A stretch of DNA of 64,000 bases, from the NCBI GenBank assembly GCA_032622095.1, contig CP136063.1, forward strand, positions 23,190,987-23,254,986, written 5' to 3'. This DNA comes from Siphonodentalium dalli. Its lineage: Eukaryota; Mollusca; Scaphopoda; Gadilida; Siphonodentaliidae. Shown here one piece after another: positions 1-45,972 of this stretch. A program made the position numbers and the translations under genes. The notes beneath the pieces were generated by a model. That model was not told the origin of the DNA and ran no database searches. It saw only the letters and a list, made by a program, of their open reading frames with translations. Each line of letters opens with the position of its first letter. The first letter of the stretch is position 1.

Positions 1-69
1 TCAGGAGGGAAGGATATGCTGTGCGACCATCATTTGATGAATTCGTCCACAAGTTAGTATCATATGTTA
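1..69 (+). CDS. SH2-tailed unconventional myosin, motor-domain exon (5' partial)
   Basis: The window opens inside an exon reading RREGYAVRPSFDEFVHK from base 3, which matches the conserved late motor segment of myosins (IR..GY..R..F.EFV). An upstream base would complete the preceding Ile codon. The 3' boundary is uncertain. A GT at 70 (phase 1) joins in phase to the next exon if that starts at 1429. A GT at 57 (phase 0) is the alternative. Neither donor is strong. The donor neighbourhood at 52-75 is repeated at 133-156. The ATPase, actin-binding and N-terminal parts of the protein lie to the left of the window. The reading frame and family are well supported; the exon end is not. Confidence 0.8.
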
Positions 70-226
70 GTAATATTCTCTAGCTGCTGATATTTCTTTC
101 TGTGTAGGGCTGCCTGTGGGGTTGGGGAGCTGGTAGTTAGTATCATATGTTGATAATGTAAGATATAGAATCTATGTGAACAAGTTCAAAAATTCAATAA
201 TAAAGAAACTTTCCAGAGAAGATGAG

Positions 227-390
227 GCCTAAGCAGAATGAGGTCCCCAGAGGGTGGATTTAGTGACGCTATCCCACATAGCAGAATGAGGCCATGCAGA
301 ATGAGGTTCCCAGAGGATGAAGTTAGTGGTGGTAGCCCGTTATGCGGGATAGCGTCACTAATTCACCCTCTGGGGACCTCATTCTGCAAA
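227..390. repeat. fold-back element, GCAGAATGAGGTCCCC family (nested copies)
   Basis: The segment contains GAATGAGGTCCCCAGAGGGT followed by its reverse complement around 357-386, separated by short copies of the same motif and by the GCTATCCCACATAGC-type inner stem. Related fold-backs occur at 33757-33865, 34043-34165, 40787-41097 and 43195-43310. It has no coding capacity and behaves like a non-autonomous MITE. Confidence 0.65.
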
Positions 391-734
391 TGACAGGCAC
401 ACTAAACTCAGGCTTGTTTCTGACCACTTAACGTGTTATGCTCTAGCTTACCTGGGACCTCTACACACACAACTATAGGGCAGTGCACTATCCTAACTGA
501 ACATGTGTATGGTGAAATATGTCACAAGGTATTTCAGCGAGAGTCTATTCCACATTCAATATACAGTTATATTATATGGCGACCCCCTTTACTCATGCTG
601 TTTATAAAAAAATTCTTTGCTGACAATAAAAGGCTCAAAATCTGCTCTGCGCATGTGCAAAGAAACAGACCCCCCCCTCATCGCCAATTTGACTACTAAA
701 GTCAGAGAGACATGTGACCTTAAGTGCAAAGTAC

Positions 735-1008
735 AGTAATGTCCTAAATAATCAACTCCTTAACCACACAAAATTTCAGGATTTAGTTGGAAATATGGCT
801 TGTTTCCAATCATCGGAAAACTCTCAGTGACGCTATCCCACATAGCAGAATGAGGCCATGCAGAATGAGGTTCCCAGAGGATGAAGTTAGTGGTGGTAGC
901 TTTCCAATAAATGGCAACAAGCCATATTTCGGACTAAATCTGAAAAATTACCCATAATTCTGCTATGGTTAAGGAGTCGGTTATTTAGGGCATTAGAGTA
1001 GAAGAACC
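735..1008. repeat. fold-back element, TAATGCCCTAAATAAT family, with nested insert
   Basis: The left arm starts near CAGTAATGTCCTAAATAATC and the right arm is its inverted counterpart, ending in GGTTATTTAGGGCATTAGAG. Between them (about 828-898) sits a short piece of the GCAGAATGAGG family, so one element is nested in another. Other copies are at 18670-18846, 25328-25457, 34240-34313, 35107-35342, 40572-40705 and 49827-49999. Nothing coding is seen between 390 and 735 or between 1008 and 1428. Confidence 0.65.
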
Positions 1009-1428
1009 ATTGTAGTTAATATGTGCTTTGATCACGATATTTCTAATGAAATTCTTCCCCTTAGCTGACTATAAAAAGCAAACTCTTTTATCAAAATATG
1101 GCTGCACATGCATGAAGAATCTAACTCTCTGTCATCAATTGTCTGCCAAGTCACAGGGGTAACCATAGTGACTCATGTGCTGAAAGTACAAGTACAATTC
1201 CAGTTGATATGTGCATTTACTGTGTTGTATTTCTGTGCCAAATATCATATTATTTCGGGAGCGGTATTCCGGTCTCCCGCGTTATGGGAATATAAGGAAT
1301 GGACAGGTATTAATTTCTGGTCACTCGGGTTTAAAGGGTTAAATATTTCAATTGGGTTTACCAGGGTTTATATTATTTACCAGGGTTTACATTATTTACC
1401 AGGTACAAGATCTTGATGTGTAGGTTAG

Positions 1429-1498
1429 ACATGGCTGGGAATCAAAACAGCTGTAAACAGATTATACAGGCCAGTGGGGTCAAAGGTTGCTTCATCGG
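1429..1498 (+). CDS. SH2-tailed myosin exon 2 (end of motor, before GKTKVFL)
   Basis: The frame reads MAGNQNSCKQIIQASG then VKGCFIG. The last Gly codon is split as GG|A with the exon at 3611, which restores the invariant myosin GKTKVFL motif. The Cys-x-x-Ile-Ile pattern before it is the usual myosin helix preceding that motif. The donor is GG|GTGAGT at 1499. The start is set at the AG of 1427-1428 because this phase agrees with the preceding exon; an AG at 1422-1423 (start 1424) is also possible and would need a different upstream junction. The last ~47 bases of the exon plus 5 intron bases are duplicated in tandem immediately downstream. Confidence 0.75.
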
Positions 1499-1555
1499 GT
1501 GAGTGTAAACAGATTATACAGGCCAGTGGGGTCAAAGGTTGATTCATCGGGTAAG
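1452..1555 (+). repeat. 52 bp tandem duplication of an exon end plus splice donor
   Basis: Two 52 bp copies (1452-1503, 1504-1555) each end in CTTCATCGGGTGAG or ATTCATCGGGTAAG, so each carries the exon 2 terminus and a good donor. Copy 2 differs by a TGC-to-TGA change in the coding frame. Use of the second donor would therefore give a stop, and the first donor must be the productive one. Confidence 0.9.
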
Positions 1556-1558
1556 TAT

Positions 1559-1880: not shown

Positions 1881-1908
1881 CAGATATCAAGTTCCTAGGT
1901 ATGATATT

Positions 1909-3326: not shown

Positions 3327-3610
3327 ATGTACCCAGCTCAACATGTACCACACTCTTACCCACCTCTACACAAACTTATGCCTGCATGCCTAACATGCTA
3401 GGTTCCTATTTAATGTTTTAGGCACACTACGAGTGTTCATCTGTCACATACACGCTCATTTTATAAATAATATTCATATTCTCTGAATCGTGTGAGATAT
3501 ATTCGCAGGAATCGGAAACTACAGGAGTTAAAAATTGTGAAATATTATATCCAAATTTTGCAAAAAATATTTGTAAATATTGCCAATTAGTTGTGTTTTC
3601 TTCATCTCAG

Positions 3611-3702
3611 AAAAACGAAGGTGTTCTTGAAATATTGGCACTTGGATGAGTTTAACGACGCCATAGAGAAAATGGGAAAGTCTGCATTACACTTACAGAG
3701 AG
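3611..3702 (+). CDS. SH2-tailed myosin exon 3 (GKTKVFL motif, lever-arm start)
   Basis: After TTCATCTCAG the exon reads KTKVFLKYWHLDEFNDAI then EKMGKSALHLQR. The split first codon completes GKTKVFLK, the invariant converter-to-lever junction of myosins. The end LHLQR is the first half of the IQ motif completed by the exon at 19703. Length is 92 bp, entering in phase 2 and leaving in phase 1 (AGA G|GTGAGT). The donor region is present three times in tandem directly downstream, so splice choice here may be interesting. The following intron (3703-19702) is exactly 16,000 bp and holds the large minisatellite. Confidence 0.92.
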
Positions 3703-3853
3703 GTGAGTTACTGATACGACTAAAACCACAATCACCAAGCCTAAAATACAGAGAGGTGAGTTACTGATACGACTAAAACCACAATCACCAAGCCTAAAAT
3801 ACAGAGAGGTGAGTTACTGATACGACTAAAACCACAATCACCAAGCCTCAAAT
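3695..3853 (+). repeat. 53 bp x3 tandem repeat of the exon 3 splice donor
   Basis: Three nearly identical 53 bp units start at 3695, 3748 and 3801, each beginning ACAGAGAGGTGAGTTAC. Unit 1 includes the last 8 coding bases of exon 3 and its donor; units 2 and 3 repeat that donor inside the intron. Copies differ by one base near the end of unit 3. Confidence 0.93.
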
Positions 3854-3883
3854 ACTCCGTACTAATGAGGTGTTAAGTCTGAA

Positions 3884-6800
3884 TTGTCACCCCTACCCCC
3901 ATGAATCCTGAATACCTGAGTTAACAGAGAGGAGTGTCACCCCTAACCCCATGAATCCTGGATACCTGAGTTAACAGAGAGGGGTGTCACCCCTAACCCC
4001 ATGAATCCTGGATACCTGAGTTAACAGAGAGGGGTGTCACCCCTAACCACCATGAATCCTGGATACCTGAGTTAACAGAGAGGGGTGTCACCCCTAACCC
4101 CATGAATCCTGGATACCAGTTAACAGAGAGGGGTGTCACCCCTAACCCCATGAATCCTGGATACCTGTTAACAGAGAGGAGTGTCACCCCTAACCACCAT
4201 GAATCCTGGATACCTGAGTTAACAGAGAGGGGTGTCACCCCTAACCCCATGAATCCTGGATACCTGAGTTAACAGAGAGGAGTGTCACCCCTAACCACCA
4301 TGAATCCTGGATACCAGTTAACAGAGAGGGGTGTCACCCCTAACCCCATGAATCCTGGATACCAGTTAACAGAGAGGAGTGTCACCCCTAACCACCATGA
4401 ATCCTGGATACCAGTTAACAGAGAGGGGTGTCACCCCTAACCACCATGAATCCTGGATACCAGTTAACAGAGAGGGGTGTCACCCCTAACCCCATGAATC
4501 CTGGATACCTGTTAACAGAGAGGAGTGTCACCCCTAACCACCATGAATCCTGGATACCAGTTAACAGAGAGGGGTGTCACCCCTAACCCCATGAATCCTG
4601 GATACCAGTTAACAGAGAGGAGTGTCACCCCTAACCCCATGAATCCTGGATACCAGTTAACAGAGAGGAGTGTCACCCCTAACCACCATGAATCCTGGAT
4701 ACCAGTTAACAGAGAGGAGTGTCACCCCAAACCCCATGAATCCTGGATACCAGTTAACAGAGAGGAGTGTCACCCCTAACCACCATGAATCCTGGATACC
4801 AGTTAACAGAGAGGAGTGTCACCCCTAACCACCATGAATCCTGGATACCAGTTAACAGAGAGGGGTGTCACCCCTAACCACCATGAATCCTGGATACCTG
4901 AGTTAACAGAGAGGGGTGTCACCCCTAACCACCATGAATCCTGAATACCAGTTAACAGAGAGGGGTGTCACCCCTAACCCCATGAATCCTGGATACAAGT
5001 TAACAGAGAGGAGTGTCACCCCAAACCCCATGAATCCTGGATACCAGTTAACAGAGAGGAGTGTCACCCCTAACCACCATGAATCCTGGATACCAGTTAA
5101 CAGAGAAGAGTGTCACCCCAAACCCCATGAATCCTGGATACCAGTTAACAGAGAGGGGTGTCACCCCTAACCACCATGAATCCTGGATACCAGTTAACAG
5201 AGAGGGGTGTCACCCCTAACCCCATGAATCCTGGATACCTGTTAACAGAGAGGAGTGTCACCCCTAACCACCATGAATCCTGGATACCAGTTAACAGAGA
5301 GGGGTGTCACCCCTAACCCCATGAATCCTGGATACCAGTTAACAGAGAGGAGTGTCACCCCTAACCCCATGAATCCTGGATACCAGTTAACAGAGAGGAG
5401 TGTCACCCCTAACCACCATGAATCCTGGATACCAGTTAACAGAGAGGAGTGTCACCCCAAACCCCATGAATCCTGGATACCAGTTAACAGAGAGGAGTGT
5501 CACCCCTAACCACCATGAATCCTGGATACCAGTTAACAGAGAGGGGTGTCACCCCTAACCACCATGAATCCTGGATACCAGTTAACAGAGAGGGGTGTCA
5601 CCCCTAACCCCATGAATCCTGGATACCTGTTAACAGAGAGGAGTGTCACCCCTAACCACCATGAATCCTGGATACCAGTTAACAGAGAGGGGTGTCACCC
5701 CTAACCCCATGAATCCTGGATACCAGTTAACAGAGAGGAGTGTCACCCCTAACCCCATGAATCCTGGATACCAGTTAACAGAGAGGAGTGTCACCCCTAA
5801 CCACCATGAATCCTGGATACCAGTTAACAGAGAGGAGTGTCACCCCAAACCCCATGAATCCTGGATACCAGTTAACAGAGAGGAGTGTCACCCCTAACCA
5901 CCATGAATCCTGGATACCAGTTAACAGAGAGGAGTGTCACCCCTAACCACCATGAATCCTGGATACCAGTTAACAGAGAGGGGTGTCACCCCTAACCACC
6001 ATGAATCCTGGATACCTGAGTTAACAGAGAGGGGTGTCACCCCTAACCACCATGAATCCTGAATACCAGTTAACAGAGAGGGGTGTCACCCCTAACCCCA
6101 TGAATCCTGGATACAAGTTAACAGAGAGGAGTGTCACCCCAAACCCCATGAATCCTGGATACCAGTTAACAGAGAGGAGTGTCACCCCTAACCACCATGA
6201 ATCCTGGATACCTGAGTTAACAGAGAGGGGTGTCACCCCTAACCACCATGAATCCTGGATACCAGTTAACAGAGAGGAGTGTCACCCCTAACCCCATGAA
6301 TCCTGGATACCAGTTAACAGAGAGGAGTGTCACCCCTAACCACCATGAATCCTGGATACCAGTTAACAGAGAGGAGTGTCACTCCTAACCCCATGAATCC
6401 TGGATACCAGTTAACAGAGAGGGGTGTCACCCCTAACCACCATGAATCCTGGATACCTGAGTTAACAGAGAGGGGTGTCACCCCTAACCACCATGAATCC
6501 TGGATACCAGTTAACAGAGAGGAGTGTCACCCCTAACCCCATGAATCCTGGATACCTGAGTTAACAGAGAGGGGTGTCACCCCTAACCCCATGAATCCTG
6601 AATACCAGTTAACAGAGAGGAGTGTCACCCCTAACCACCATGAATCCTGGATACCAGTTAACAGAGAGGAGTGTCACCCCTAACCACCATGAATCCTGGA
6701 TACCAGTTAACAGAGAGGGGTGTCACCCCTAACCCCATGAATCCTGGATACCTGAGTTAACAGAGAGGGGTGTCACCCCTAACCACCATGAATCCTGGAT

Positions 6801-9800
6801 ACCAGTTAACAGAGAGGAGTGTCACCCCTAACCCCATGAATCCTGGATACCTGAGTTAACAGAGAGGGGTGTCACCCCTAACCCCATGAATCCTGGATAC
6901 CAGTTAACAGAGAGGAGTGTCACCCCTAACCACCATGAATCCTGGATACCAGTTAACAGAGAGGAGTGTCACCCCTAACCACCATGAATCCTGGATACCA
7001 GTTAACAGAGAGGGGTGTCACCCCTAACCCCATGAATCCTGGATACCAGTTAACAGAGAGGAGTGTCACCCCTAACCACCATGAATCCTGGATACCTGTT
7101 AACAGAGAGGGGTGTCACCCCTAACCACCATGAATCCTGGATACCAGTTAACAGAGAGGGGTGTCACCCCTAACCCCATGAATCCTGGATACCAGTTAAC
7201 AGAGAGGAGTGTCACCCCTAACCACCATGAATCCTGGATACCAGTTAACAGAGAGGAGTGTCACCCCTAACCCCATGAATCCTGAATACCTGAGTTAACA
7301 GAGAGGAGTGTCACCCCTAACCCCATGAATCCTGAATACCTGAGTTAACAGAGAGGAGTGTCACCCCTAACCCCATGAATCCTGGATACCAGTTAACATA
7401 GAGGAGTGTCACCCTAACCCCATGAATCCTGAATACCTGAGTTAACAGAGAGGAGTGTCACCCCTAACCCCATGAATCCTGGATACCAGTTAACATAGAG
7501 GAGTGTCACCCTAACCCCATGAATCCTGAATACCTGAGTTAACAGAGAGGGGTGTCACCCCTAACCCCATGAATCCTGGATACCTGAGTTAACAGAGAGG
7601 GGTGTCACCCCTAACCCCATGAATCCTGGATACCAGTTAACAGAGAGGGGTGTCACCCCTAACCCCATGAATCCTGGATACCAGTTAACATAGAGGGGTG
7701 TCGCCCCTAACCACCATGAATCCTGGATACCAGTTAACAGAGAGGGGTGTCACCCCTAACCCCATGAATCCTGGATACCAGTTAACAGAGAGGGGTGTCA
7801 CCCCTAACCCCATGAATCCTGGATACCAGTTAACAGAGAGGAGTGTCACCCCTAACCACCATGAATCCTGAATACCTGAGTTAACAGAGAGGAGTGTCAC
7901 CCCTAACCCCATGAATCCTGAATACCTGAGTTAACAGAGAGGAGTGTCACCCCTAACCCCATGAATCCTGGATACCAGTTAACATAGAGGAGTGTCACCC
8001 TAACCCCATGAATCCTGAATACCTGAGTTAACAGAGAGGAGTGTCACCCCTAACCCCATGAATCCTGGATACCAGTTAACATAGAGGAGTGTCACCCTAA
8101 CCCCATGAATCCTGAATACCTGAGTTAACAGAGAGGGGTGTCACCCCTAACCCCATGAATCCTGGATACCTGAGTTAACAGAGAGGGGTGTCACCCCTAA
8201 CCCCATGAATCCTGGATACCAGTTAACAGAGAGGGGTGTCACCCCTAACCCCATGAATCCTGGATACCAGTTAACATAGAGGGGTGTCGCCCCTAACCAC
8301 CATGAATCCTGGATACCAGTTAACAGAGAGGGGTGTCACCCCTAACCACCATGAATCCTGGATACCAGTTAACATAGAGGGGTGTCGCCCCTAACCACCA
8401 TGAATCCTGGATACCAGTTAACAGAGAGGGGTGTTACCCCTAACCCCATGAATCCTGGATACCAGTTAACAGAGAGGGGTGTCACCCCTAACCCCATGAA
8501 TCCTGGATACCAGTTAACAGAGAGGGGTGTCACCCCTAACCCCATGAATCCTGGATACCAGTTAACAGAGAGGAGTGTCACCCCTAACCACCATGAATCC
8601 TGGATACCAGTTAACAGAGAGGGGTGTCACCCCTAACCACCATGAATCCTGAATACCTGAGTTAACAGAGAGGAGTGTCACCCCTAACCACCATGAATCC
8701 TGGATACCTGAGTTAACAGAGAGGGGTGTCACCCCTAACCACCATGAATCCTGGATACCAGTTAACAGAGAGGAGTGTCACACCTAACCACCATGAATCC
8801 TGGATACAAGTTAACAGAGAGGAGTGTCACCCCTAACCACCATGCATCCTGGATACCTGAGTTAACAGAGAGGAGTGTCACCCCTAACCCCATGAATCCT
8901 GGATACCAGTTAACAGAGAGGAGTGTCACCCCTAACCCCATGAATCCTGGATACCAGTTAACAGAGAGGAGTGTCACCCCTAACCACCATGAATCCTGGA
9001 TACCTGAGTTAACAGAGAGGGGTGTCACCCTAACCACCATGAATCCTGGATACCAGTTAACAGAGAGGAGTGTCACCCCTAACCCCATGAATCCTGGATA
9101 CCAGTTAACAGAGAGGAGTGTCACCCCTAACCCCATGAATCCTGGATACCAGTTAACAGAGAGGGGTGTCACCCCTAACCCCATGAATCCTGGATACCTG
9201 AGTTAACAGAGAGGAGTGTCACCCCTAACCCCATGAATCCTGGATACCTGAGTTAACAGAGAGGAGTGTCACCCCTAACCCCATGAATCCTGGATACCAG
9301 TTAACAGAGAGGAGTGTCACCCCTAACCCCATGAATCCTGGATACCTGAGTTAACAGAGAGGGGTGTCACCCCTAACCACCATGAATCCTGGATACCAGT
9401 TAACAGAGAGGAGTGTCACCCCTAACCACCATGAATCCTGAATACCTGAGTTAACAGAGAGGGGTGTCACCCCTAACCACCATGAATCCTGGATACCAGT
9501 TAACAGAGAGGAGTGTCACCCCTAACCACCATGAATCCTGGATACCTGAGTTAACAGAGAGGAGTGTCACCCCTAACCCCATGAATCCTGGATACCTGAG
9601 TTAACAGAGAGGGGTGTCACCCCTAACCACCATGAATCCTGAATACCTGAGTTAACAGAGAGGAGTGTCACCCCTAACCCCATGAATCCTGGATACCTGA
9701 GTTAACAGAGAGGAGTGTCACCCCTAACCCCATGAATCCTGAATACCTGAGTTAACAGAGAGGGGTGTCACCCTAACCACCATGAATCCTGGATACCTGA

Positions 9801-12800
9801 GTTAACAGAGAGGAGTGTCACCCCTAACCCCATGAATCCTGGATACCTGAGTTAACAGAGAGGAGTGTCACCCCTAACCACCATGAATCCTGGATACCAG
9901 TTAACAGAGAGGGGTGTCACCCCTAACCCCATGAATCCTGGATACCTGAGTTAACAGAGAGGGGTGTCACCCCTAACCACCATGAATCCTGGATACCAGT
10001 TAACAGAGAGGAGTGTCACCCCTAACCACCATGAATCCTGGATACCAGTTAACAGAGAGGAGTGTCACCCCTAACCCCATGAATCCTGGATACCAGTTAA
10101 CAGAGAGGAGTGTCACCCCTAACCCCATGAATCCTGGATACCAGTTAACAGAGAGGAGTGTCACCCCTAACCCCATGAATCATGAGTTAACAGAGAGGAG
10201 TGTCACCCCTAACCACCATGAATCCTGGATACCAGTTAACAGAGAGGAGTGTCACCCCTAACCCCATGAATCCTGGATACCTGAGTTAACAGAGAGGGGT
10301 GTCACCCCTAACCCCATGAATCCTGGATACCAGTTAACAGAGAGGAGTGTCACCCCTAACCCCATGAATCCTGGATACCTGAGTTAACAGAGAGGAGTGT
10401 CACCCCTAACCCTATGAATCCTGGATACCAGTTAACAGAGAGGGGTGTCACCCCTAACCCCATGAATCCTGGATACCTGAGTTAACAGAGAGGAGTGTCA
10501 CCCCTAACCCCATGAATCCTGGATACCAGTTAACAGAGAGGGGTGTCACCCCTAACCCCATGAATCCTGGATACCAGTTAACAGAGAGGGGTGTCACCCC
10601 TAACCCCATGAATCCTGGATACCAGTTAACAGAGAGGGGTGTCACCCCTAACCCCATGAATCCTGGATACCAGTTAACAGAGAGGAGTGTCACCCCTAAC
10701 CACCATGAATCCTGGATACCTGAGTTAACAGAGAGGGGTGTCACCCCTAACCCCATGAATCCTGGATACCTGAGTTAACAGAGAGGGGTGTCACCCCTAA
10801 CCCCATGAATCCTGGATACCAGTTAACAGAGAGGGGTGTCACCCCTAACCCCATGAATCCTGGATACCAGTTAACAGAGAGGGGTGTCACCCCTAACCAC
10901 CATGAATCCTGGATACCTGAGTTAACAGAGAGGGGTGTCACCCCTAACCCCATGAATCCTGGATACCTGAGTTAACAGAGAGGAGTGTCACCCCTAACCA
11001 CCATGAATCCTGGATACCAGTTAACAGAGAGGAGTGTCACCCCTAACCCCATGAATCCTGAATACCTGAGTTAACAGAGAGGGGTGTCACCCCTAACCAC
11101 CATGAATCCTGGATACCAGTTAACAGAGAGGGGTGTCACCCCTAACCCCATGAATCCTGGATACCAGTTAACAGAGAGGGGTGTCACCCCTAACCCCATG
11201 AATCCTGGATACCAGTTAACAGAGAGGAGTGTTGCCCCTAACCCCATGAATCCTGGATACCTGAGTTAACAGAGAGGAGTGTCACCCCTAACCCCATGAA
11301 TCCTGAATACCTGAGTTAACAGAGAGGAGTGTCACCCCTAACCCCATGAATCCTGGATACCTGAGTTAACAGAGAGGAGTGTCACCCCTAACCCCATGAA
11401 TCCTGAATACCTGAGTTAACAGAGAGGAGTGTCACCCCTAACCCCATGAATCCTGGATACCTGAGTTAACAGAGAGGAGTGTCACCCCTAACCCCATGAA
11501 TCCTGAATACCTGAGTTAACAGAGAGGGGTGTCACCCCTAACCCCATGAATCCTGGATACCAGTTAACAGAGAGGAGTGTCACCCCTAACCCCATGAATC
11601 CTGAATACCTGAGTTAACAGAGAGGAGTGTCACCCCTAACCACCATGAATCCTGGATACCTGAGTTAACAGAGAGGAGTGTCACCCCTAACCACCATGAA
11701 TCCTGGATACCTGAGTTAACAGAGAGGGGTGTCACCCCTAACCACCATGAATCCTGGATACCAGTTAACAGAGAGGGGTGTCACCCCTAACCCCATGAAT
11801 CCTGGATACCAGTTAACAGAGAGGAGTGTCACCCCTAACCACCATGAATCCTGGATACCTGAGTTAACAGAGAGGAGTGTCACCCCTAACCCCATGAATC
11901 CTGGATACCAGTTAACAGAGAGGAGTGTCACCCCTAACCCCATGAATCCTGGATACCAGTTAACAGAGAGGAGTGTCACCCCTAACCCCATGAATCCTGG
12001 ATACCAGTTAACAGAGAGGAGTGTCACCCCTAACCCCATGAATCCTGAATACCTGAGTTAACAGAGAGGAGTGTCACCCCTAACCACCATGAATCCTGGA
12101 TACCTGAGTTAACAGAGAGGGGTGTCACCCCTAACCACCATGAATCCTGGATACCAGTTAACAGAGAGGGGTGTCACCCCTAACCCCATGAATCCTGGAT
12201 ACCAGTTAACAGAGAGGGGTGTCACCCCTAACCACCATGAATCCTGGATACCAGTTAACAGAGAGGGGTGTCACCCCTAACCCCATGAATCCTGGATACC
12301 AGTTAACAGAGATGGGTGTCACCCCTAACCACCATGAATCCTGGATACCAGTTAACAGAGAGGGGTGTCACCCCTAACCACCATGAATCCTGGATACCAG
12401 TTAACAGAGAGGGGTGTCACCCCTAACCACCATGAATCCTGGATACCAGTTAACAGAGAGGAGTGTCACCCCTAACCACCATGAATCCTGGATACCAGTT
12501 AACAGAGAGGGGTGTCACCCCTAACCACCATGAATCCTGGATACCAGTTAACAGAGAGGGGTGTCACCCCTAACCCATGAATCCTGGATACCAGTTAACA
12601 GAGAGGGGTGTCACCCCTAACCACCATGAATCCTGGATACCAGTTAACAGAGAGGGGTGTCACCCCTAACCCCATGAATCCTGGATACCAGTTAACAGAG
12701 AGGAGTGTCACCCCTAACCCCATGAATCCTGGATACCTGAGTTAACAGAGAGGGGTGTCACCCCTAACCCCATGAATCCTGGATACCAGTTAACAGAGAG

Positions 12801-15800
12801 GAGTGTCAATCCTAACCCCATGAATCCTGGATACCAGTCAACAGAGAGGGTGTCACCCCTAACCCCATGAATCCTGGATACCTGAGTTAACAGAGAGGAG
12901 TGTCACCCCTAACCCCATGAATCCTGGATACCAGTTAACAGAGAGGAGTGTCACCCCTAACCACCATGAATCCTGGATACCTGAGTTAACAGAGAGGGGT
13001 GTCACCCCTAACCACCATGAATCCTGGATACCAGTTAACAGAGAGGAGTGTCACCTCTAACCACCATGAATCCTGAATACCAGTTAACAGAGAGGAGTGT
13101 CACCCCTAACCACCATGAATCCTGAATACCAGTTAACAGAGAGGTGTGTCACCTCTAACCACCATGGATCCTGGATACCAGTTAACAGAGAGGAGTGTCA
13201 CCCCTAACCACCATGAATCCTGAATACCAGTTAACAGAGAGGAGTGTCACCTCTAACCACCATGGATCCTGGATACCAGTTAACAGAGAGGGGTGTCACC
13301 CTAACCACCATGAATCCTGGATACCTGAGTTAACAGAGAGGAGTGTCACCCCTAACCCCATGAATCCTGGATACCTGAGTTAACAGAGAGGGGTGTCACC
13401 CCTAACCCCATGAATCCTGGATACCTGAGTTAACAGAGAGGAGTGTCACCCCTAACCCCATGAATCCTGGATACCAGTTAACAGAGAGGAGTGTCACTCC
13501 TAACCCCATGAATCCTGGATACCAGTTAACAGAGAGGAGTGTCACCCCTAACCACCATGAATCCTGGATACCTGAGTTAACAGAGAGGGGTGTCACCCCT
13601 AACCACCATGAATCCTGGATACCAGTTAACAGAGAGGAGTGTCACCCCTAACCACCATGAATCCTGGATACCTGAGTTAACAGAGAGGGGTGTCACCCCT
13701 AACCACCATGAATCCTGGATACCAGTTAACAGAGAGGGGTGTCACCTCTAACCACCATGGATCCTGGATACCAGTTAACAGAGAGGGGTGTCACCCTAAC
13801 CACCATGAATCCTGGATACCAGTTAACAGAGAGGGGTGTCACCCTAACCACCATGAATCCTGGATACCAGTTAACAGAGAGGGGTGTCACCCCTAACCCC
13901 ATGAATCCTGGATACCTGAGTTAACAGAGAGGGGTGTCACCCCTAACCCCATGAATCCTGGATACCTGAGTTAACAGAGAGGGGTGTCACCCCTAACCCC
14001 ATGAATCCTGGATACCAGTTAACAGAGAGGGGTGTCACCCCTAACCCCATGAATCCTGGATACCAGTTAACAGAGAGGAGTGTCACCCCTAACCCCATGA
14101 ATCCTGGATACCAGTTAACAGAGAGGAGTGTCACCCCTAACCCCATGAATCCTGGATACCAGTTAACAGAGAGGGGTGTCACCCCTAACCCCATGAATCC
14201 TGGATACCAGTTAACAGAGAGGAGTGTCACCCCTAACCCCATGAATCCTGGATACCAGTTAACAGAGAGGAGTGTCACCCCTAACCCCATGAATCCTGAA
14301 TACCTGAGTTAACAGAGAGGAGTGTCACCCCTAACCCCATGAATCCTGGATACCAGTTAACAGAGAGGGGTGTCACCCCTAACCCCATGAATCCTGGATA
14401 CCTGAGTTAACAGAGAGGAGTGTCACCCCTAACCCCATGAATCCTGGATACCAGTTAACAGAGAGGAGTGTCACCCCTAACCCCATGAATCCTGGATACC
14501 AGTTAACAGAGAGGAGTGTCACCCCTAACCCCATGAATCCTGGATACCAGTTAACAGAGAGGAGTGTCACCCCTAACCCCATGAATCCTGGATACCAGTT
14601 AACAGAGAGGGGTGTCACCCCTAACCCCATGAATCCTGGATACCAGTTAACAGAGAGGAGTGTCACCCCTAACCACCATGAATCCTGGATACCAGTTAAC
14701 AGAGAGGAGTGTCACCCTAACACCATGAATCCTGGATACCAGTTAACAGAGAGGAGTGTCACCCCTAACCACCATGAATCCTGAATACCAGTTAACAGAG
14801 AGGAGTGTCACCCCTAACCCCATGAATCCTGAATACCAGTTAACAGAGAGGGGTGTCACCCCTAACCCCATGAATCCTGGATACCTGAGTTAACAGAGAG
14901 GAGTGTCACCCCTAACCCCATGAATCCTGAATACCTGAGTTAACAGAGAGGAGTGTCACCCCTAACCCCATGAATCCTGGATACCTGAGTTAACAGAGAG
15001 GGTGTCGCCCCTAACCACATGAATCCTGGATACCAGTTAACATAGAGGGGTGTCACCCCTAACCCCATGAATCCTGGATACCAGTTAACAGAGAGGGGTG
15101 TCACCCCTAACCCCATGAATCCTGAAGACCAGTTAACAGAGAGGGTGTCGCCCCTACCCCCATGTATCCTGAATACCAGTTAACAGAGAGGAGTGTCACC
15201 CCTAACCCCATGAATCCTGAAGACCAGTTAACAGAGAGGGTGTCGCCCCTACCCCCATGTATCCTGAATACCAGTTAACAGAATTGTCACCCCCCCCCCC
15301 CCATGAAACCTGAATACCAGTTAACAGAGAGGGGTCTCATCCCACCCCACAAATCTTGAACACTAGTTATCCAGGATTCATGGGGTTAGGGGTGACACCC
15401 CTCTCTGTTAACTCAGGTATCCAGGATTCATGGTGGTTAGGGGTGTCACCCTAACCACCATGAATCCTGGATACCAGTTAACAGAGAGGGGTGTCGCCCC
15501 TAACCCCATGAATCCTGGATACCAGTTAACAGAGAGGAGTGTCACCCCTAACCCCATGAATCCTGGATACCTGAGTTAACAGAGAGGGGTGTCACCCCTA
15601 ACCCCATGAATCCTGGATACCAGTTAACAGAGAGGGGTGTCACCCCTAACCCCATGAATCCTGGATACCTGAGTTAACAGAGAGGGGTGTCGCCCCTAAC
15701 CACCATGAATCCTGGATACCAGTTAACAGAGAGGAGTGTCACCCCTAACCCCATGAATCCTGGATACCAGTTAACAGAGAGGAGTGTCACCCCTAACCCC

Positions 15801-17298
15801 ATGAATCCTGGATACCTGAGTTAACAGAGAGGGGTGTCACCCCTAACCACCATGAATCCTGGATACCTGAGTTAACAGAGAGGAGTGTCACCCCTAACCA
15901 CCATGAATCCTGGATACCAGTTAACAGAGAGGAGTGTCACCCATAACCACCATGAATCCTGGATACCAGTTAACAGAGAGGAGTGTCACCCCTAACCCCA
16001 TGAATCCTGGATACCTGAGTTAACAGAGAGGGGTGTCACCCCTAACCACCATGAATCCTGGATACCAGTTAACAGAGAGGGGTGTCACCCCTAACCCCAT
16101 GAATCCTGGATACCAGTTAACAGAGAGGGGTGTCACCCCTAACCCCATGAATCCTGGATACCAGTTAACAGAGAGGAGTGTCACCCCTAACCACCATGAA
16201 TCCTGGATACCAGTTAACAGAGAGGGGTGTCACCCCTAACCCCATGAATCCTGGATACCAGTTAACAGAGAGGGGTGTCACCCCTAACCCCATGAATCCT
16301 GGATACCAGTTAACAGAGAGGAGTGTCACCCCTAACCACCATGAATCCTGGATACCTGAGTTAACAGAGAGGGGTGTCACCCCTAACCCCATGAATCCTG
16401 AATACCTGAGTTAACAGAGAGGAGTGTCACCCCTAACCACCATGAATCCTGGATACCAGTTAACAGAGAGGAGTGTCACCCCTAACCACCATGAATCCTG
16501 GATACCAGTTAACAGAGAGGAGTGTCACCCCTAACCACCATGAATCCTGGATACCTGAGTTAACAGAGAGGGGTGTCACCCCTAACCACCATGAATCCTG
16601 GATACCAGTTAACAGAGAGGAGTGTCACCCCTAACCCCATGAATCCTGGATACCAGTTAACAGAGAGGGGTGTCACCCCTAACCACCATGAATCCTGGAT
16701 ACCAGTTAACAGAGAGGGGTGTCACCCCTAACCCCATGAATCCTGGATACCAGTTAACAGAGAGGGGTGTCACCCCTAACCCCATGAATCCTGGATACCA
16801 GTTAACAGAGAGGAGTGTCACCCCTAACCACCATGAATCCTGGATACCAGTTAACAGAGAGGGTGTCGCCCCTAACCACATGAATCCTGGATACCTGAGT
16901 TAACAGAGAGGAGTGTCACCCCTAACCCCATGAATCCTGGATACCTGAGTTAACAGAGAGGGGTGTCGCCCCTAACCACCATGAATCCTGGATACCAGTT
17001 AACAGAGAGGAGTGTCACCCCTAACCCCATGAATCCTGGATACCAGTTAACAGAGAGGAGTGTCACCCCTAACCCCATGAATCCTGGATACCAGTTAACA
17101 GAGAGGGGTGTCACCCCTAACCCCATGAATCCTGAAGACCAGTTAACAGAGAGGGTGTCGCCCCTACCCCCATGTATCCTGAATACCAGTTAACAGAATT
17201 GTCACCCCCCCCCATGAAACCTGAATACCAGTTAACAGAGAGGGGTCTCATCCCACCCCACAAATCTTGAACACTAGTTAACAGAGAGGGGTGTCATC
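3884..17298 (+). repeat. 13.4 kb minisatellite array, 48-50 bp units
   Basis: Uninterrupted head-to-tail units of the form ACAGAGAGGGGTGTCACCCC, TAACCCCATGAATCCTGGAT, ACCAGTTA. Variants are CCAGTTA, CCTGAGTTA or CCTGTTA at one joint, CCCC or CCACC at another, and GGGG or GGAG. By length there are about 270-280 units. Each unit carries a GGGGTG.CACCCC dyad and a GTTAAC palindrome. Where units are 48 bp (16 codons) they stay open in frame, which gives long repetitive ORFs on both strands; these are not genes. Blocks of about 390 bp recur at the left (5232 against 5622, for example), and a block around 7276-7700 recurs at 7866-8290. The array lies in the intron between the two halves of the myosin IQ motif. 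Confidence 0.97.
15368..15448 (-). repeat. inverted segment within the minisatellite
   Basis: About 1.6 units are in reverse orientation (ATCCAGGATTCATGGGGTTA ... CTCTCTGTTAACTCAGG), flanked on both sides by forward units. The right junction makes a small hairpin (GGTTAGGGGTGTCACCCTAACC-like). The degenerate terminal variant just left of it (15110-15368, with a run of C) is repeated at the true array end (17130-17290). Confidence 0.85.
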
Positions 17299-19702: not shown

Positions 19703-19867
19703 TTGCCCGCGGGTTTTTGGGAAGACGACGTGTCGAGAGAATGAAGCTGGATGCGAGGAAGCGAGCGGCCACCCTGGAGGCATTGATGCTTGAAGTGGAG
19801 GAACGCGGAATCAACAAATGTATAATGCAACAAAGTCTGATTAACAGCGATAAAAACAGAACAGCAA
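19703..19867 (+). CDS. SH2-tailed myosin exon 4 (IQ motif and charged helix)
   Basis: Acceptor TTATGTTCCAG, donor GCA A|GTAGGT, 165 bp. The exon opens VARGFLGRRRVERM, completing with the previous exon the IQ motif LQRVARGFLGRRR, a calmodulin or light-chain binding helix. It continues KLDARKRAATLEALMLEVEE, strongly helical and charged, a candidate short coiled coil or extended single helix, then a less ordered Ser/Asn-rich end. Only one IQ motif is visible, giving a short lever arm. Phases (in 1, out 1) agree with both neighbours. Confidence 0.92.
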
Positions 19868-22886: not shown

Positions 22887-23002
22887 GTGAAAGGAGAAAA
22901 CTGGAGAAAGCTAAAGCGCCACCTGTACCAGATATCTCACCTCCGAACTCTGTGATGGGATACGAGAAACCGAGAGTAGCATTTTCTTCACAGGGAATAC
23001 AG
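22887..23002 (+). CDS. SH2-tailed myosin exon 5 (proline-rich linker)
   Basis: Acceptor TTTATTGTAG, donor ATACAG|GTCAGT, 116 bp, phase 1 in and 0 out. It reads ERRKLEKAKAPPVPDISPPN then SVMGYEKPRVAFSSQGIQ. The basic start continues the charged helix of exon 4; KAPPVPDISPP is a PxxP-type segment that could bind SH3 domains (inference). The tandem array in the next intron begins at this donor. Confidence 0.88.
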
Positions 23003-25962: not shown

Positions 25963-26159
25963 GTTGAGGAGGAGTCATCGGATGAGGATGTCCTGGAGGA
26001 TGACTTCCTGCTAGCAGCGTCTCACAAAAAGAACAAATACGGCAAACAGGGAACCAAAATGGCTTCCATCCGATGGTTCCAGGAAACGCAGACGGACAAA
26101 GTTATAGAGCAGGAGAAAGGAATGTTCTCCGAGTGGTTTCATGGGATTATAACTAGAGC
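25963..26159 (+). CDS. SH2-tailed myosin exon 6 (acidic segment, start of SH2)
   Basis: Acceptor TTAACCTTGCAG, donor AGAGC|GTGAGT, 197 bp, phase 0 in and 2 out. It begins with an acidic block (VEEESSDEDVLEDDFLLAAS), then a basic KKNKYGKQGTKMASIRWFQ, and ends EKGMFSEWFHGIITRA. The WFHG.I sequence is the canonical opening of an SH2 domain (W-(F/Y)-H/F-G), with alpha-A residues continuing into the next exon. The last ~70 coding bases plus donor are duplicated in tandem four or more times downstream. Confidence 0.92.
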
Positions 26160-26680
26160 GTGAGTAAATTTGATTGTTTCCATGGTAATGCAGACAGTAG
26201 ATGTTCCAGAGTGAGGAAAGGGCAATGTTCTCAGAGTGGTTTCATGGGATTATAACTAGATTGTGAGTAAATTTGATTGTTTCCATGGTAACGCAGACAA
26301 ACAAAGTTATAAAGCAGGAGAAAGGAATGTTCTCCGAGTGGTTTCATGGGATTATAACTAGAGCGTGAGTAATTTTGATTGTTTCCATGTTAATGCAGAT
26401 GGATAACTTTATGGAGCAGGATAAAAGAATGTTTTCAGAGTGGTTTCATGGAATTATAACTCAGAGTGCGAGTAATTTGTTGGTTTCCATGGTAATGTAA
26501 ATGGACAATGTAAAAAAGCCTGAATGTTCCGGGAGTGCATGGTCTCATGAGATCATAACTAGAGTGTGTGCAAATTTCGATGGTAAAACATAATTGCTTT
26601 GTAGAGCAGAAAAAGGCAATATTACATAAGTGTGTCGTTGGATAATAACTGACTAAATTGAACTTATTTTGTATGTTACG
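26085..26680 (+). repeat. 102 bp tandem duplication of exon 6 end plus donor, 5-6 graded copies
   Basis: The landmark GAGTGGTTTCATGGGATTAT is at 26131, 26234 and 26336, with variants at 26438 (one change) and 26533 (several), giving spacings of 103, 102, 102 and 95. Each copy has a donor-like GTGAGT or decayed GCGAGT/GTGTGC, and an upstream GCAG that could act as acceptor. The copy at 26336 keeps the frame fully open and is almost identical in protein to the real exon end. Copies further right are progressively decayed. Confidence 0.93.
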
Positions 26681-28196: not shown

Positions 28197-28286
28197 CGAA
28201 GCAGAGAAATTGTTACAAGGAAAGCCTGTTGGATGTTTCCTGATTCGAGTTAGCGAGAGTAGATTTGGTTATTCTTTATCATTCCG
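28197..28286 (+). CDS. SH2-tailed myosin exon 7 (SH2 phosphotyrosine pocket)
   Basis: Acceptor CATTTGTTACAG, donor TTCCG|GTAAGT, 90 bp, phase 2 in and 2 out. It reads EAEKLLQGKPVGCFLIRVSE then SRFGYSLSF. FLIRVSES is the SH2 beta-B strand with the invariant phosphotyrosine-binding Arg; the Ser residues after it supply the usual BC-loop contacts. The pocket is intact, so ligand binding is expected. The order G.FLIR.SES..GY.LS resembles the HSH2D/SH2D2A/SH2D7 group from general knowledge. Confidence 0.95.
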
Positions 28287-29947: not shown

Positions 29948-30065
29948 TGGTGAGGACAGGACCCGACACTATATGATAGACCAGACACCAAACGGGAAAT
30001 ACCTTGTGGTCGGAGAAGGAAAAGTCATGAAAAGTCTCAAACATCTCGTGCAATATTACCAAACT
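29948..30065 (+). CDS. SH2-tailed myosin exon 8 (SH2 central sheet to alpha-B)
   Basis: Acceptor ATGTAACTTTCAG, donor CAAACT|GTAAGT, 118 bp, phase 2 in and 0 out. It reads GEDRTRHYMIDQTPNGKYLV then VGEGKVMKSLKHLVQYYQT. RTRHYMI is the beta-D strand with the conserved His; SLKHLVQYYQT is the alpha-B helix and following segment (usual form SL..LV.YY). Together with exons 6, 7 and 9 this makes a complete SH2 fold. Confidence 0.95.
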
Positions 30066-32880: not shown

Positions 32881-32928
32881 CACCAGTTATCTAACTGGAA
32901 GCATTTACTAACAGAATCGTGTGGACAG
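32881..32928 (+). CDS. SH2-tailed myosin exon 9 (end of SH2)
   Basis: Acceptor TATTTTTCAG, donor GGACAG|GTAAGT, 48 bp, phase 0 on both sides. It reads HQLSNWKHLLTESCGQ. The LLTESCGQ ending corresponds to the conserved terminal strand of HSH2D/SH2D2A-type SH2 domains (LLT.PC.Q), which supports that affinity. It is small but well bounded and in phase with both neighbours. Confidence 0.9.
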
Positions 32929-35439: not shown

Positions 35440-35760
35440 ATGTATAACTCTTTTATCCATTACAAGCACATGAACTTTGTTATAAGTATGTAAATCAGCT
35501 GTGATTTTCAATGTAGTCTGCAATATTGTCAAGGGATAGAACTCTATTATGAGCACATTATAAGCACAATTTTTGTTTCGAGCAGTAGTTATTTCAATGT
35601 CGTCTGCAATATCTCAGGAAATATTACTCTATTCTCATTGTAGGCACATTAACTTAAGCGGGGGATATAACTCTAATTTCATTGCAGGCTCATGAACTTA
35701 TCAAACAGGGGATATAACTCTATTTTCATTGCAGGCACATGAACAATGTGATTATGCTGA
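35440..35760 (+). repeat. ladder of duplicated 3' splice sites before exon 10
   Basis: The acceptor and first coding bases (TTTTCATTGCAG|GCACATGAAC at 35735) recur as TTTCATTGCAG|GCTCATGAAC (35688) and TCTCATTGTAG|GCACATTAAC (35644), with more decayed copies near 35550 (GAGCACATTA) and 35468 (CAAGCACATGAACTTTG). Each is preceded by ATA.AACTCTATT. Spacings are 47, 44 and roughly 80-95. The copies degrade with distance from the true exon. Confidence 0.85.
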
Positions 35761-35821
35761 ACTGATCGATGAGAAAACATACTTTGTCCTGGAGAACCTT
35801 GAGCGACTCAAAACCATGAAG
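35735..35821 (+). CDS. SH2-tailed myosin exon 10 (tail after SH2)
   Basis: Acceptor TTTTCATTGCAG, donor ATGAAG|GTGAAG, 87 bp, phase 0 on both sides. It reads AHEQCDYAELIDEKTYFVLE then NLERLKTMK. The DYAELID motif has the form of a tyrosine phosphorylation site. The following FVLENLERLKTMK is probably helical. The donor is weaker than the others; the next intron starts at once with TTGATTGAT repeats. Confidence 0.88.
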
Positions 35822-35834: not shown

Positions 35835-36180
35835 TTGATTGATTGATCTATATTTATTGATTGATTGATCAAAATTGATTGATCTATTGGTTTATATTTA
35901 TTTTTTTATGTATATTGATTGATTGATGTATATTGATTGATCTACTGAAATACGTTGATTGATATCTTCATCTTTATTGATTGATTGATCTCTATTGATT
36001 GATTGATGTATATTGATTGATCTACTGAAATATGTTGATTGATATCTTCATCTTTATTGATTGATTGATCTCTATTGATTGATTGATGTATATTGATTGA
36101 TCTACTGAAATACGTTGATTGATATCTTCATCTTTATTGATTGATTGATCTCTATTGATTGATTGATGTATATTGATCAT
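35835..36180 (+). repeat. TTGATTGATT-type simple repeat, with ~90 bp higher-order units
   Basis: Short TGAT/TTGAT repeats organised in three longer units that share CTACTGAAATA.GTTGATTG and ATATCTTCATCTTTATTGAT. It runs from just inside the intron to the next array. Confidence 0.9.
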
Positions 36181-39410: not shown

Positions 39411-39440
39411 ACTAATCTATCTGCATAAAAACAAATAACC

Positions 39441-41228: not shown

Positions 41229-41426
41229 ACAAGACCCATCTCGAGAGTGACCGGACCGAGTGAGAAGGCTCCGACGATTCCCGACCGTAATTACAGTCGG
41301 ATGAGTGACATGAGCTCCGGTGCACTCCATCACGAAGAATCAAACAAAAACAGGCCCCTCCCACAAATTCCTGAACCAACCAATCCAGCGCCAGAAGCTG
41401 TGTACAATCGACTCATTCAGAATCAG
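41229..41426 (+). CDS. SH2-tailed myosin exon 11 (proline/tyrosine-rich tail)
   Basis: Acceptor ATATTATTTCAG, donor AATCAG|GTGATT, 198 bp, phase 0 on both sides. It starts TRPISRVTGPSEKAPTIPDR and continues NYSRMSDMSSGALHHEES, then NRPLPQIPEPTNPAPEAVYN and RLIQNQ. It is low in hydrophobics, with two PxxP-like segments and two tyrosines in potential signalling contexts (NYSRM, VYNRL). By analogy with SH2D2A-like adaptors this could be an SH3- and SH2-docking tail; that is inference. Confidence 0.88.
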
Positions 41427-43310: not shown

Positions 43311-43354
43311 ACTTGTTAACCTGTTCTATATTAAATGGATTATCCCTTTGGGCA

Positions 43355-43779
43355 TTATCCCTTTACCCAACAAACCGGCCAAAAACGCCCAAATAAAGCT
43401 TCAACAGCCTAAAATATCTTCGGTCTGTCTCAATAACACCATACAAATATGGATATCATTGTAACCGGTTCATCGACCACATTGTGATGGTTACAGTTAT
43501 GCCCTGTGCCAATGCATTCTCTTATATATGCCAGTCGACCATAAAATTTTTTTTTAACACTTTTTACCATTTTTTCTTACATTCTTTAACAATTTTAGAA
43601 TTTTTTCTGACATTTTTTAACAATTTTTATAATATTTTTCTACATTCTTTGACAATTTTATCATTTTTAATATGTGTTAAGCCAATGCATTCTCTTATAT
43701 ATGCGAGGCGACCTATGGTCGACTCGCATATATAAGAGAATGCATTGGCACAGCGCCGTTCTGTTGGGTAAAGGGTTAT
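43355..43779. mobile_element. MITE, TTAACCCTTTACCCAACA family, one hairpin half lost
   Basis: Starts TTATCCCTTTACCCAACAAA. The first core hairpin stops at its loop (GAGTCGACCATA equivalent, about 43542) and runs directly into the T-rich spacer; the second hairpin (43681-43747) is complete. It ends GTTGGGTAAAGGGTTATAA. Confidence 0.82.
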
Positions 43780-43858
43780 AAGCAGACTAGAGACAGACGA
43801 ACAGATAATACAAATGCTGAAGGATTGTAATTTATTTGTGGGAAATGTTCAGATAATA

Positions 43859-45641
43859 GAGACCTTTCGCATCCTCACGTTTACGATTACGAATACGGAT
43901 AGCTATTCGTAGTCGTAAGTCTATCCGTATGGCCAAAAAGTCCTTTCGCAAAACGAGTACGCGTAAGAGTTTTGACGAACACGTACGATCATTATTTCGT
44001 ACCACTTTTACAACTCAAAGCGTGTGTTTGGTATACAGTCCCTTAATACTTCACTTATCGTCTCATTTGCAACAATGCGATTATCATGACCTGCTAATAT
44101 TGTCAATAATTCGACCAGTCACAACGTACGACCCGGGATTCTCGTGATATATTGTGGCAATACAGGTATAAATGCCAGGTCATATGTGGTGGAAATTCAG
44201 TTCGTTGTTAGCATGGATGACCGGATAGACGTTATGCTGATGGGGAAGAGGGGTTCCTGAATTTGGACCTCACATCAACCACGACGCCATCGTTCAAGCC
44301 CCTTCAAGTCCGCGAGTTGATTTCAATGCGATTTCGGCTTCACCTCTTTGGGTTTAGGAAATCCGACATAAGGTTGGTGAGCTCGTTGATGTGCATCACT
44401 TCTGATGTGTTACTACCAAATCGAAACAAAGTCGACACGGTAGAAGCGATGTGCATCAAGTTGCTTTTTTGTCAGATATTTGACAAACCGGCAAAATTTC
44501 GTTGCACAAAATGTTGATAAATAACAGGTTTTGGGCAATTTTATAATATAGTTCACTGTGGTTAGCATTAATTTTGAGCAATTACTCGATTCTGATAACA
44601 GAAGCGGCATTTCAAAAAAAATTGTTGTTGGAATCTGATGATATGGGGACATCTAATCGGATTGAGTACCTTTAAATGCCGCATTTGTGCATGTTCTTTA
44701 AATTAAAAATAAATGCAAAGAACAAACCTGACAGAGACTGCTGAGCTCTGGTGATGTCGGTGGGTGTGCCAAATATTCTTTTAGTTATGGTTCAGGAGCA
44801 GAAATTACTACTTACCAGTTGAATCGGGATCCAGGGTATGTTCAGATTACTCAGACAGAGTACTTTATGTAACTTAGAACTCGGTTATGAATTCCATGTA
44901 ATTTTAAAATCGGTTATGAATTCCATGTAATTTTAAAATGCCCTGCATTACAGACTCTACGAGAGAGATATATAAAACCCAACTTCTACCGAAAACCGAA
45001 TATTATTAAATTGAATGAACTATTCAATTCGGGAAAGGGGAAGAGAACACAAAATCTTTCACTATTCATTAATAGGGTTATGCCATTATTTAGGCTCTCC
45101 TGATGCATTCTATAACTGCATACGCTAGGACACCACCATGGGTTGTTGAATTAAATAATTGTTGAATTTCACTATATAATGTGTACTATCTTGCACATAA
45201 TAATCACTCAAAACTCCTCATGCATCGCACACTATATACTGTATTTTTGGCGACTGGTTTCATAGTGCACTCTTACTGTAAAGTTTTCTGTCGCAGCCAT
45301 GGCAGCTATGGCTATCCGTTGTGAATAGCGATCTTATTTCGCGGGAAGCTCGTGATTCACGACGACGAGTACAGTGATTGACAATCTAAACAGCACATCG
45401 AGGTCGTAGCTCAATACAACTGGATGGTGTACATGATATACATATACAGTCTCGAACGGAGTAGAGTGATATATTGCAGAAAATAAATTTCAGGTGTTAT
45501 TTGAGCTTATTAGAAACCATGAAATCGTAACCGTCATTACGGATAGTAAAATACGAGAACGATTAGAAAGTACACAAAGGTTGGTGACGTAGTACCCTAT
45601 CCGTATCCGTAATCGTAAACGTGAGTTTTGCGAAAGGTCTC
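43859..45641. mobile_element. PIF/Harbinger-like element, degenerate
   Basis: A 1783 bp segment with inverted termini GAGACCTTTCGCATCCTCAC / GTGAGTTTTGCGAAAGGTCTC, continued inward by GTTTACGATTACG..TACGGATAG arms. TAATA directly flanks both ends (43854-43858 and 45642-45646), compatible with the short A/T-rich target of PIF/Harbinger elements. It contains a broken transposase start. Tandem pairs (ATCGGTTATGAATTCCATGT at 44881 and 44914) lie inside. Confidence 0.72.
44214..44517 (+). pseudogene. PIF/Harbinger transposase N-terminal remnant
   Basis: A frame from ATG 44214 (MDDRIDVMLMGKR) hits a stop; after a shift the frame continues PSFKPLQVRELISMRFRLHL, FGFRKSDIRLVSSLMC, then LLPNRNKVDTVEAMCIKLL. 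The F.FRK.DI..L...L......NR.KV...EA.CI.L pattern is the N-terminal region typical of HARBI1-type transposases. The catalytic DDE region is absent and the frame ends soon after, so it is non-functional. Family assignment is from pattern memory. Confidence 0.55.
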
Positions 45642-45720
45642 TAATAAGTTCAACATACGACACAGCACATCATAACTGAATAAAGGTTGTTTTATTTCTT
45701 ATTTGTTGGATTTTCCCCAG

Positions 45721-45795
45721 ATGGATCAACATTCTTATGCTAGACATACGGATGGTCCAAAGAAAAAGATGTCGACAACTCGTGGCCAGCGATGA
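45721..45795 (+). CDS. SH2-tailed myosin, candidate terminal exon A
   Basis: A strong acceptor (TTGGATTTTCCCCAG) precedes a phase-0 frame that fits exon 11: MDQHSYARHTDGPKKKMSTT then RGQR and TGA. The exon end is repeated in ~55 bp tandem copies within the downstream sequence. No AATAAA is seen before the MITE that begins at 45981, though that MITE itself supplies AAATAAAG at about 46016. It is therefore either a last exon or a decaying one; see the alternative at 58417. Confidence 0.5.
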   Translation: MDQHSYARHTDGPKKKMSTTRGQR

Positions 45796-45972
45796 TTTTG
45801 TAAAGAGGGTTCAAAGAAGAAATTATCTACAACTTGCAGCCAGCGATCGATGATTTTGTAGAGGGCCCAAAGAAGAAATTATCCACAAAGCATATAGCCA
45901 ATGGTGGTTTCATAAAGAGCGTCCAAAGAAGAAATTATCCACAAGTCATCGCCAGTGACGATTCTGTTACAT
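45751..45972 (+). repeat. ~55 bp tandem copies of the terminal exon A end, 4 units
   Basis: Units share GGTCCAAAGAA.AA.AT, TCCACAA and GCCAG.GATGATTTTGTA. The first includes the coding end and stop; the next three diverge increasingly. CAAAGAAGAAATTATC is the best preserved part. Confidence 0.85.

Follow-up and report, generated by a model that had tools for sequence, protein, structure and literature searches.

Tandem arrays whose repeat unit crosses exon–intron borders in a myosin III gene of the scaphopod Siphonodentalium dalli

The DNA analyzed here, hereafter the window, is a stretch of 64,000 nucleotides from the scaphopod mollusc Siphonodentalium dalli (assembly GCA_032622095.1, contig CP136063.1, positions 23,190,987 to 23,254,986). 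On its plus strand lies the 3′ half of a gene for a myosin III with an SH2 tail, and tandem repeats overlap several of the exon–intron borders of this gene. Twelve exons, from 1-52 to 45721-45795, join into one open frame of 443 codons, with GT donors and AG acceptors at the internal exon borders; exon 1 is truncated by the window edge. The exons are:

1..52, plus strand: exon 1 (cut by the window edge), myosin converter RREGYAVRPSFDEFVHK, donor GTTAGT; set by frame and homology
1403..1498, plus strand: exon 2, YKILMCRLDMAGNQNSCKQIIQASGVKGCFIG; set by frame; relatives have KYKILLC-type sequence here
3611..3702, plus strand: exon 3, KTKVFLKYWHLDEFNDAIEKMGKSALHLQR; frame and homology
19703..19867, plus strand: exon 4, ARGFLGRRR stretch; frame and homology
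22887..23002, plus strand: exon 5; frame
25963..26159, plus strand: exon 6, start of the SH2 domain; Pfam and frame
28197..28286, plus strand: exon 7, SH2
29948..30065, plus strand: exon 8, SH2
32881..32928, plus strand: exon 9; homology
35735..35821, plus strand: exon 10; frame and homology
41229..41426, plus strand: exon 11; homology
45721..45795, plus strand: terminal coding exon, MDQHSYARHTDGPKKKMSTTRGQR and stop; the Haliotis protein ends QEEQHKYN...LSTTRNRLH

Because the reading frame and the alignment to relatives set the junctions, these were fixed independently of the repeats. Exon 2 was also considered as the duplication of a whole microexon, which was rejected, since the alignment puts its start further upstream, at 1403. 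The exon at 45721 matches the C terminus of the Haliotis protein by eye; because that protein ends in the same way, a second terminal exon at 58417 is probably outside the gene.

The identity of the gene was established from its domains and its relatives. Pfam SH2 (PF00017) matched at E 1.2e-19, while the fragment gave no match to the motor family at E 0.001. Full-length relatives named "myosin-IIIb-like" carry both PF00063 and PF00017, and the order of converter followed by SH2 is common to them and the window gene. The SH2 search and the first alignment used a 436-residue protein lacking seven residues at exon 2; later work used all 443. Over the region, identity was 43% to Haliotis, 43% to Gigantopelta, 45% to Nucella, 45% to Owenia, and 39% to Branchiostoma floridae, within a relative set of 114 proteins at E ≤ 0.001. 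A 45-row tree placed the window myosin in a clade of 31 rows, made up of sequences from molluscs, an annelid (Owenia), and rotifers plus eight rows without a name (support 99/97); its grouping with three Branchiostoma rows was rejected (p-AU 0.0026). Within the tree, 26 mollusc rows (six without a name) grouped to the exclusion of the window myosin, with support of 87/90, which is not strong. A search of Rfam at gathering thresholds returned 0 matches.

Tandem Repeats Finder (TRF) at score 50 gave 76 rows in the window, and 5 of 23 junctions lie inside the arrays. The arrays at these junctions are:

1354..1403, plus strand: exon 2 acceptor array, 19 bp, 2.5 copies; the last TTTACCAG is the exon 2 acceptor
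1452..1556, plus strand: exon 2 donor duplication, TRF 52 bp × 2.0, 47 nt of exon plus the donor
3694..3855, plus strand: exon 3 donor array, TRF 53 bp × 3.1, 9 nt of exon plus the donor GTGAGT
26077..26650, plus strand: exon 6 donor array, 102-bp unit, 83 nt of exon plus the donor; TRF range 26077-26508, × 4.2
35443..35744, plus strand: exon 10 acceptor array, 47 bp × 2.7, TRF range 35621-35744; 10 nt of exon

At four junctions, the donors of exons 2, 3, and 6 and the acceptor of exon 10, the repeat unit itself crosses the border and takes in 9 to 83 nt of exon, and both 5′ and 3′ boundaries are therefore affected. An earlier note on this DNA had claimed, for at least six junctions of the gene, tandem copies that start within the exon edge. 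Alignment to the border bore this out at these four, where the units do include the exon edge, but not at the donor of exon 1 or at what that note called terminal exon A. The note had counted two copies of 52 bp at exon 2, three of 53 bp at exon 3, and five to six of 102 bp at exon 6, where six are recognizable including the exon's own, the weaker ones reaching to about 26650. The copies that it had placed at the exon 10 acceptor correspond to the 47-bp array, in which copies with AG at 35644 and 35688 precede the functional site at 35735, together with an older outlying copy at 35443-35483 whose site, 35466, is without AG. The fifth junction, the exon 2 acceptor, was absent from the earlier list; there, TTTACCAG and the G that follows it, the one exon base inside, close the 19-bp array. 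At all five junctions the array extends further into the intron than into the exon.

The sets differ in apparent age. TRF matches of the exon 2 and exon 3 sets were 96% and 99%; copy 2 of exon 2 has, in the exon frame, a TGA in place of the TGC of the used copy, and the exon 3 copies agree at 100% and 98.2% (over 39 and 56 bases). The exon 10 copies, going upstream, matched at 90.7%, 84.4%, 89.5% (a 19-base fragment), and 82.5%. For copies 2 to 6 of exon 6, the exon-derived part matched at 61/74, 72/75, 63/75, 51/68, and 38/50 bases (82%, 96%, 84%, 75%, and 76%), and the intron-derived part, which includes the donor, at 19/19, 18/19, 15/18, 15/18, and 15/17. The decay with distance from the real junction that had been proposed thus holds as a loose trend; copy 3 of exon 6 breaks it by matching the exon better than copy 2 does, which suggests exchange between the copies.

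Further arrays and repeats adjoin borders or the end of the coding region, as follows:

3885..17296, plus strand: 48-bp array, 274 copies, 13.4 kb, intron 3; TRF also gives period 97
23012..23999, plus strand: exon 5 array, TRF 68 bp × 14.5; starts 10 nt into the intron; exon content uncertain
35835..36177, plus strand: ATTGATTG-rich array; begins 14 nt past the exon 10 donor
45751..45966, plus strand: terminal-exon copies of about 55 bp, coding end and 3′ untranslated region (3′UTR); TRF 45785-45945, 56 bp × 2.9

The 13.4-kb array begins about 30 bp past the exon 3 border copies. Its 48-bp unit and the exon 3 border unit share ACAGAGAGG and a 17-base stretch at 82%, a likeness that gave P 0.02 and 0.01 for two versions of the unit (mononucleotide shuffles). 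From sequence likeness, then, it is possible that the large array grew from the exon 3 border.

At exon 5, about 15 copies starting in the exon edge had been described. An array of about this size does adjoin the donor, and its origin from the exon edge received mixed support: the last 20 exonic and first 10 intronic bases fitted the array no better than shuffled sequence did (P 0.086, 500 shuffles). An extension with TCAG as its anchor, selected post hoc, gave P 0.007 (first 6 of 12 copies, 150 shuffles). The unit of this array may derive from a mobile element, because part of it resembles, by eye, sequence near 58770 and 59640. The matches of the array at the exon 10 donor held no exon sequence. 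At exon 1, positions 52-74 and 135-157 agree over 23 bases at 91.3%; only base 52 of these is exonic, so that this repeat does not count as an exon-edge copy. Tandem copies are present at the terminal exon (45805-45858 matches at 80%, 45921-45966 at 76%), but they copy the coding end and the 3′UTR and contain no splice junction. At the other 16 junctions, lowering the TRF score to 30 still revealed no array within 15 nt, the exon 1 donor having only its 23-base repeat.

We evaluated what the extra copies would do if they were spliced. The set comprised 12 sites: donors of exon 2 (one), exon 3 (two), and exon 6 (four), and acceptors of exon 10 (three) and exon 2 (two). Used singly, every one of them added 19-408 nt and introduced a stop codon between 305 and 1196 nt upstream of the last junction; two exon 1 positions tried besides the 12 gave early stops too. 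Messages with such early stops would be degraded. The uniform outcome is evidence against productive back-up sites, and the selection for back-up splice sites that the earlier note had offered as one explanation is accordingly opposed. AG/GT signals are kept in many, but not all, of the copies. Intact donors are GTGAGT in copies 2 and 3 of both exon 3 and exon 6 and GTAAGT in copy 2 of exon 2, and two exon 10 acceptor copies retain AG. Three of the 12 sites are damaged (26467, 26567, and 35466); copies 4 and 5 of exon 6 carry GCGAGT and a GTGTGC/GTGCAA-type site. As a class, the extra copies could resemble neutral spares.

Together, these data are probably best explained by "mirages", as such structures are called in lancelets: minisatellites that grew from short tandem duplications which happened to span a border, their extra splice sites being tolerated by-products and not working spares. 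On this account, a tandem duplication of only some 20-100 bp would by chance cross an exon–intron border and develop into a minisatellite. The spliceosome would keep to the exon-side site, which selection would hold, and the duplications would be tolerated because that site is kept. The spare copies would then become intron, neutral in effect, and would expand or shrink by slippage or unequal exchange, be partly homogenized, and drift. As the gene is rich in minisatellites, some would be expected to fall on borders. Read through the exon-side copies, the gene has an open frame that can be aligned to relatives at up to 45% identity, which favors the mirage explanation, and arrays that lie deeper in the intron and end near junctions are as expected if selection holds the exon content.

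Several observations weigh against this explanation. An array grows by repeating its unit and cannot take up adjoining exon sequence; the unit must therefore have arisen across the border, and a model of unit birth is the fitting one. For spans of at least 5 nt, this model yielded four border-spanning units against 0.67-0.75 expected, about five-fold over chance (P 0.004-0.006, four settings, the first run on 23 junctions and the other three on 22, without the 58417 exon). A slower decay of copies anchored to an exon would not account for the exon 2 and exon 3 sets, which are young. In copies 2 to 6 of exon 6, moreover, 82/91 intron-derived bases, donor included, were kept as compared with 285/342 exon-derived ones (raw counts). 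Finally, the use of the exon-side site is itself deduced from the reading frame.

Another view is that borders are hot spots of tandem duplication in this lineage, where arrays are seeded more than elsewhere, for example by transcription-linked breaks, steps in base composition, or a conserved exon copy that remains available as a template. We regard this as rather unlikely, and the answer to whether the placement of the arrays exceeds chance depends on the null. In the unit-birth model with spans of at least 1 nt, which takes in the exon 2 acceptor, five events stood against 0.85-0.93 (P 0.001-0.002, three settings; the score ≥ 150 setting was excluded, as the exon 2 acceptor array scores 87). 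When arrays were placed so as to avoid exons (overlap of at most 83 nt and no whole exon), 5 junctions fell in arrays against 1.2 expected (P 0.004-0.005) and 7 fell in or within 15 nt of arrays against 1.5-1.6 (P below 0.001); placement with zero exon overlap gives zero spans by construction and hence is uninformative. Similar structures are also reported from several lancelet genes. Against these results stand the single gene, picked as striking, with only four or five events, and the controls described below, in which junctions in arrays showed no excess. We regard unit birth as the best of the chance models, with the caveats of small counts and a window selected for its striking look.

Array ends gave a more uniform result. 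At score ≥ 50, ends lay within 15 nt of 5 of 23 junctions against 0.3-1.3 expected (P ≤ 0.008 under every null), with 1.0 expected under uniform placement (P 0.002-0.003) and P 0.003-0.008 under rotation. Scores ≥ 30 gave 5 against 1.5-1.8 (P 0.017-0.026) and scores ≥ 100 gave 4 against 0.7-0.9 (P 0.004-0.012). Such an excess is as expected from selection against repeat content in exons.

A plainer account, which overlaps with the mirage explanation, is that arrays are so abundant that borders simply fall in them, with no link between array and border; taken by itself, it appears unlikely. Arrays of score ≥ 50 occupy 24.5 of the first 60 kb; with the 13.4-kb array set aside, the figures are 11.1 and 46.6 kb. 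Five junctions in arrays are therefore not a high number. Rotation gave means of 9.4 and 5.6 with and without that array, and single uniform placement gave 8.1 and 3.8. Arrays spanning a junction were likewise not in excess (score ≥ 50, period ≥ 7), five being observed against 3.9 and 3.9 under rotation and 3.8 and 2.9 under single placement (P 0.15-0.33). Local repeats at scores 24, 28-40, and 50 were found at 6, 4, and 3 of 23 junctions against 6.8, 5.6-6.2, and 5.0 expected, the expectation coming from 1500 random positions outside the 13.4-kb array, about 25% of which passed as compared with 4 of 23 junctions. The 23 junctions of the uniform, exon-avoiding, rotation, and local-repeat tests include the one of the 58417 exon, and the start of exon 2 was taken as 1402 in the rotation and local-repeat controls and as 1403 in the single-placement and birth models. 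Coincidence is opposed by the rarity with which a unit would itself arise across a border and by the concentration of array ends at junctions. The claim of the earlier note that placement was "far from random" is not borne out by the uniform, rotation, and local-repeat controls for junctions in arrays; the exon-avoiding and unit-birth models do give an excess, in a single window chosen for its look.

That the copies are selected as decoy or regulatory sites, whose use would tune expression through nonsense-mediated decay, is very improbable: each of the 12 does lead to a premature stop, several sites are intact, and in the exon 6 copies the part from the intron, with the donor, matches better than the part from the exon, yet the sites of exon 6 copies 4 and 5 and of the exon 10 copy at 35466 are broken, the base numbers are small, and early stops are what any misuse would probably produce and do not point to design.

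A broader idea strikes us as distinctly doubtful, namely that borders are recurrent seeds of minisatellites across animals, the exon copy serving as a permanent template from which border units would pass into large intronic satellites, so that introns would grow from their edges. On this idea, the 13.4-kb array would stem from the exon 3 border, and the array after exon 5 could represent an ancient copy of its border.

The window holds further repeats and genes. Right after the ATTGATTG-rich array, intron 10 carries a 2.6-kb array of mixed 33-bp and 58-bp units (36191-38760). In intron 2, the minus strand at about 2440-2682 reads by eye like a transmembrane exon, with the end CAG|GTTAGTATC. 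An element with the ends TTAACCCTTTACCCAAC and GTTGGGTAAAGGGTTAA is present in six paired copies, with a lone end at 34174:

2874-3327: first paired copy
34459-34981: second
39010-39410: third
45981-46380: fourth
50364-50737: fifth
53749-54189: sixth

Its inner hairpins are built on CTTATATATGCGAG, which occurs 16 times in the window, and it resembles a TTAA-targeting (piggyBac-type) miniature inverted-repeat transposable element. A second TTAA-ended family, with ends TTAACCCTTTNAGTGCCAGG, was seen at 2124, 30352-30593, 31928, 41572-41805, and 51104, and a third, with short inverted repeats and ends TACAGTAATGCCC and GGGCATTACTGTA, at 18837, 24229, 25326-25459, 34302, 35126-35342, 40692, and 49826-49997. 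At 60617-62611, the plus strand has a Toll-like open frame of 665 codons that combines leucine-rich repeats with a TIR domain; its relatives are distant (21-35% identity).

Last, we compared the window with known systems. In the report on earthworm metallothionein, intronic minisatellites and exon-4 duplicates absent from the transcript form a near parallel (PMC12783039). Internal tandem repeats at exon–intron boundaries are also described for human segmentally duplicated genes, with effects on splicing and the formation of novel introns (PMC2812944). The two cases share tandem repeats at borders; in the window, existing junctions are copied and the reading frame of the relatives is preserved. 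Tandem duplication and splice signals also go together in the intron gain from duplicated AG/GT proto-splice sites proposed by Rogers (1989, cited in PMC3087553), but no new intron was seen in the window gene.

The closest match is with the lancelet mirages, described in Adh3 and the globins BflGb6 and BflGb9 (PMC3087553) and in PGBD5 and, as cited there, troponin C (PMC3902484). The lancelet units measure 10-72 and 150-160 bp, splice signals occur in many but not all copies, and splicing is reported not to be disturbed (PMC3087553, PMC3902484). The window arrays match mirages in the structural features examined here: a unit across the border, both boundary types, and signals in many but not all copies. 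The window copies likewise span borders at 5′ and 3′ sites, and the exon-side copy gives the normal frame. In contrast to the lancelet cases, the window gene falls among sequences of molluscs, annelids, and rotifers, the structures affect four or five junctions within a single gene, and the set adjoins a 13.4-kb intronic array. Among the matches listed in the literature searched, no mirages by that name were found outside cephalochordates, which is not proof of absence; the term occurred with this meaning in the two lancelet papers. If the excess at junctions is true, it offers a concrete route for intron growth and raw material for intron gain; if there is none, the window is a warning that repeat-rich genes yield striking border arrays by chance. 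Border-spanning minisatellites, which can be searched for by a simple genome-wide count, were described in lancelets and are now found on the mollusc and annelid side of the bilaterian tree.

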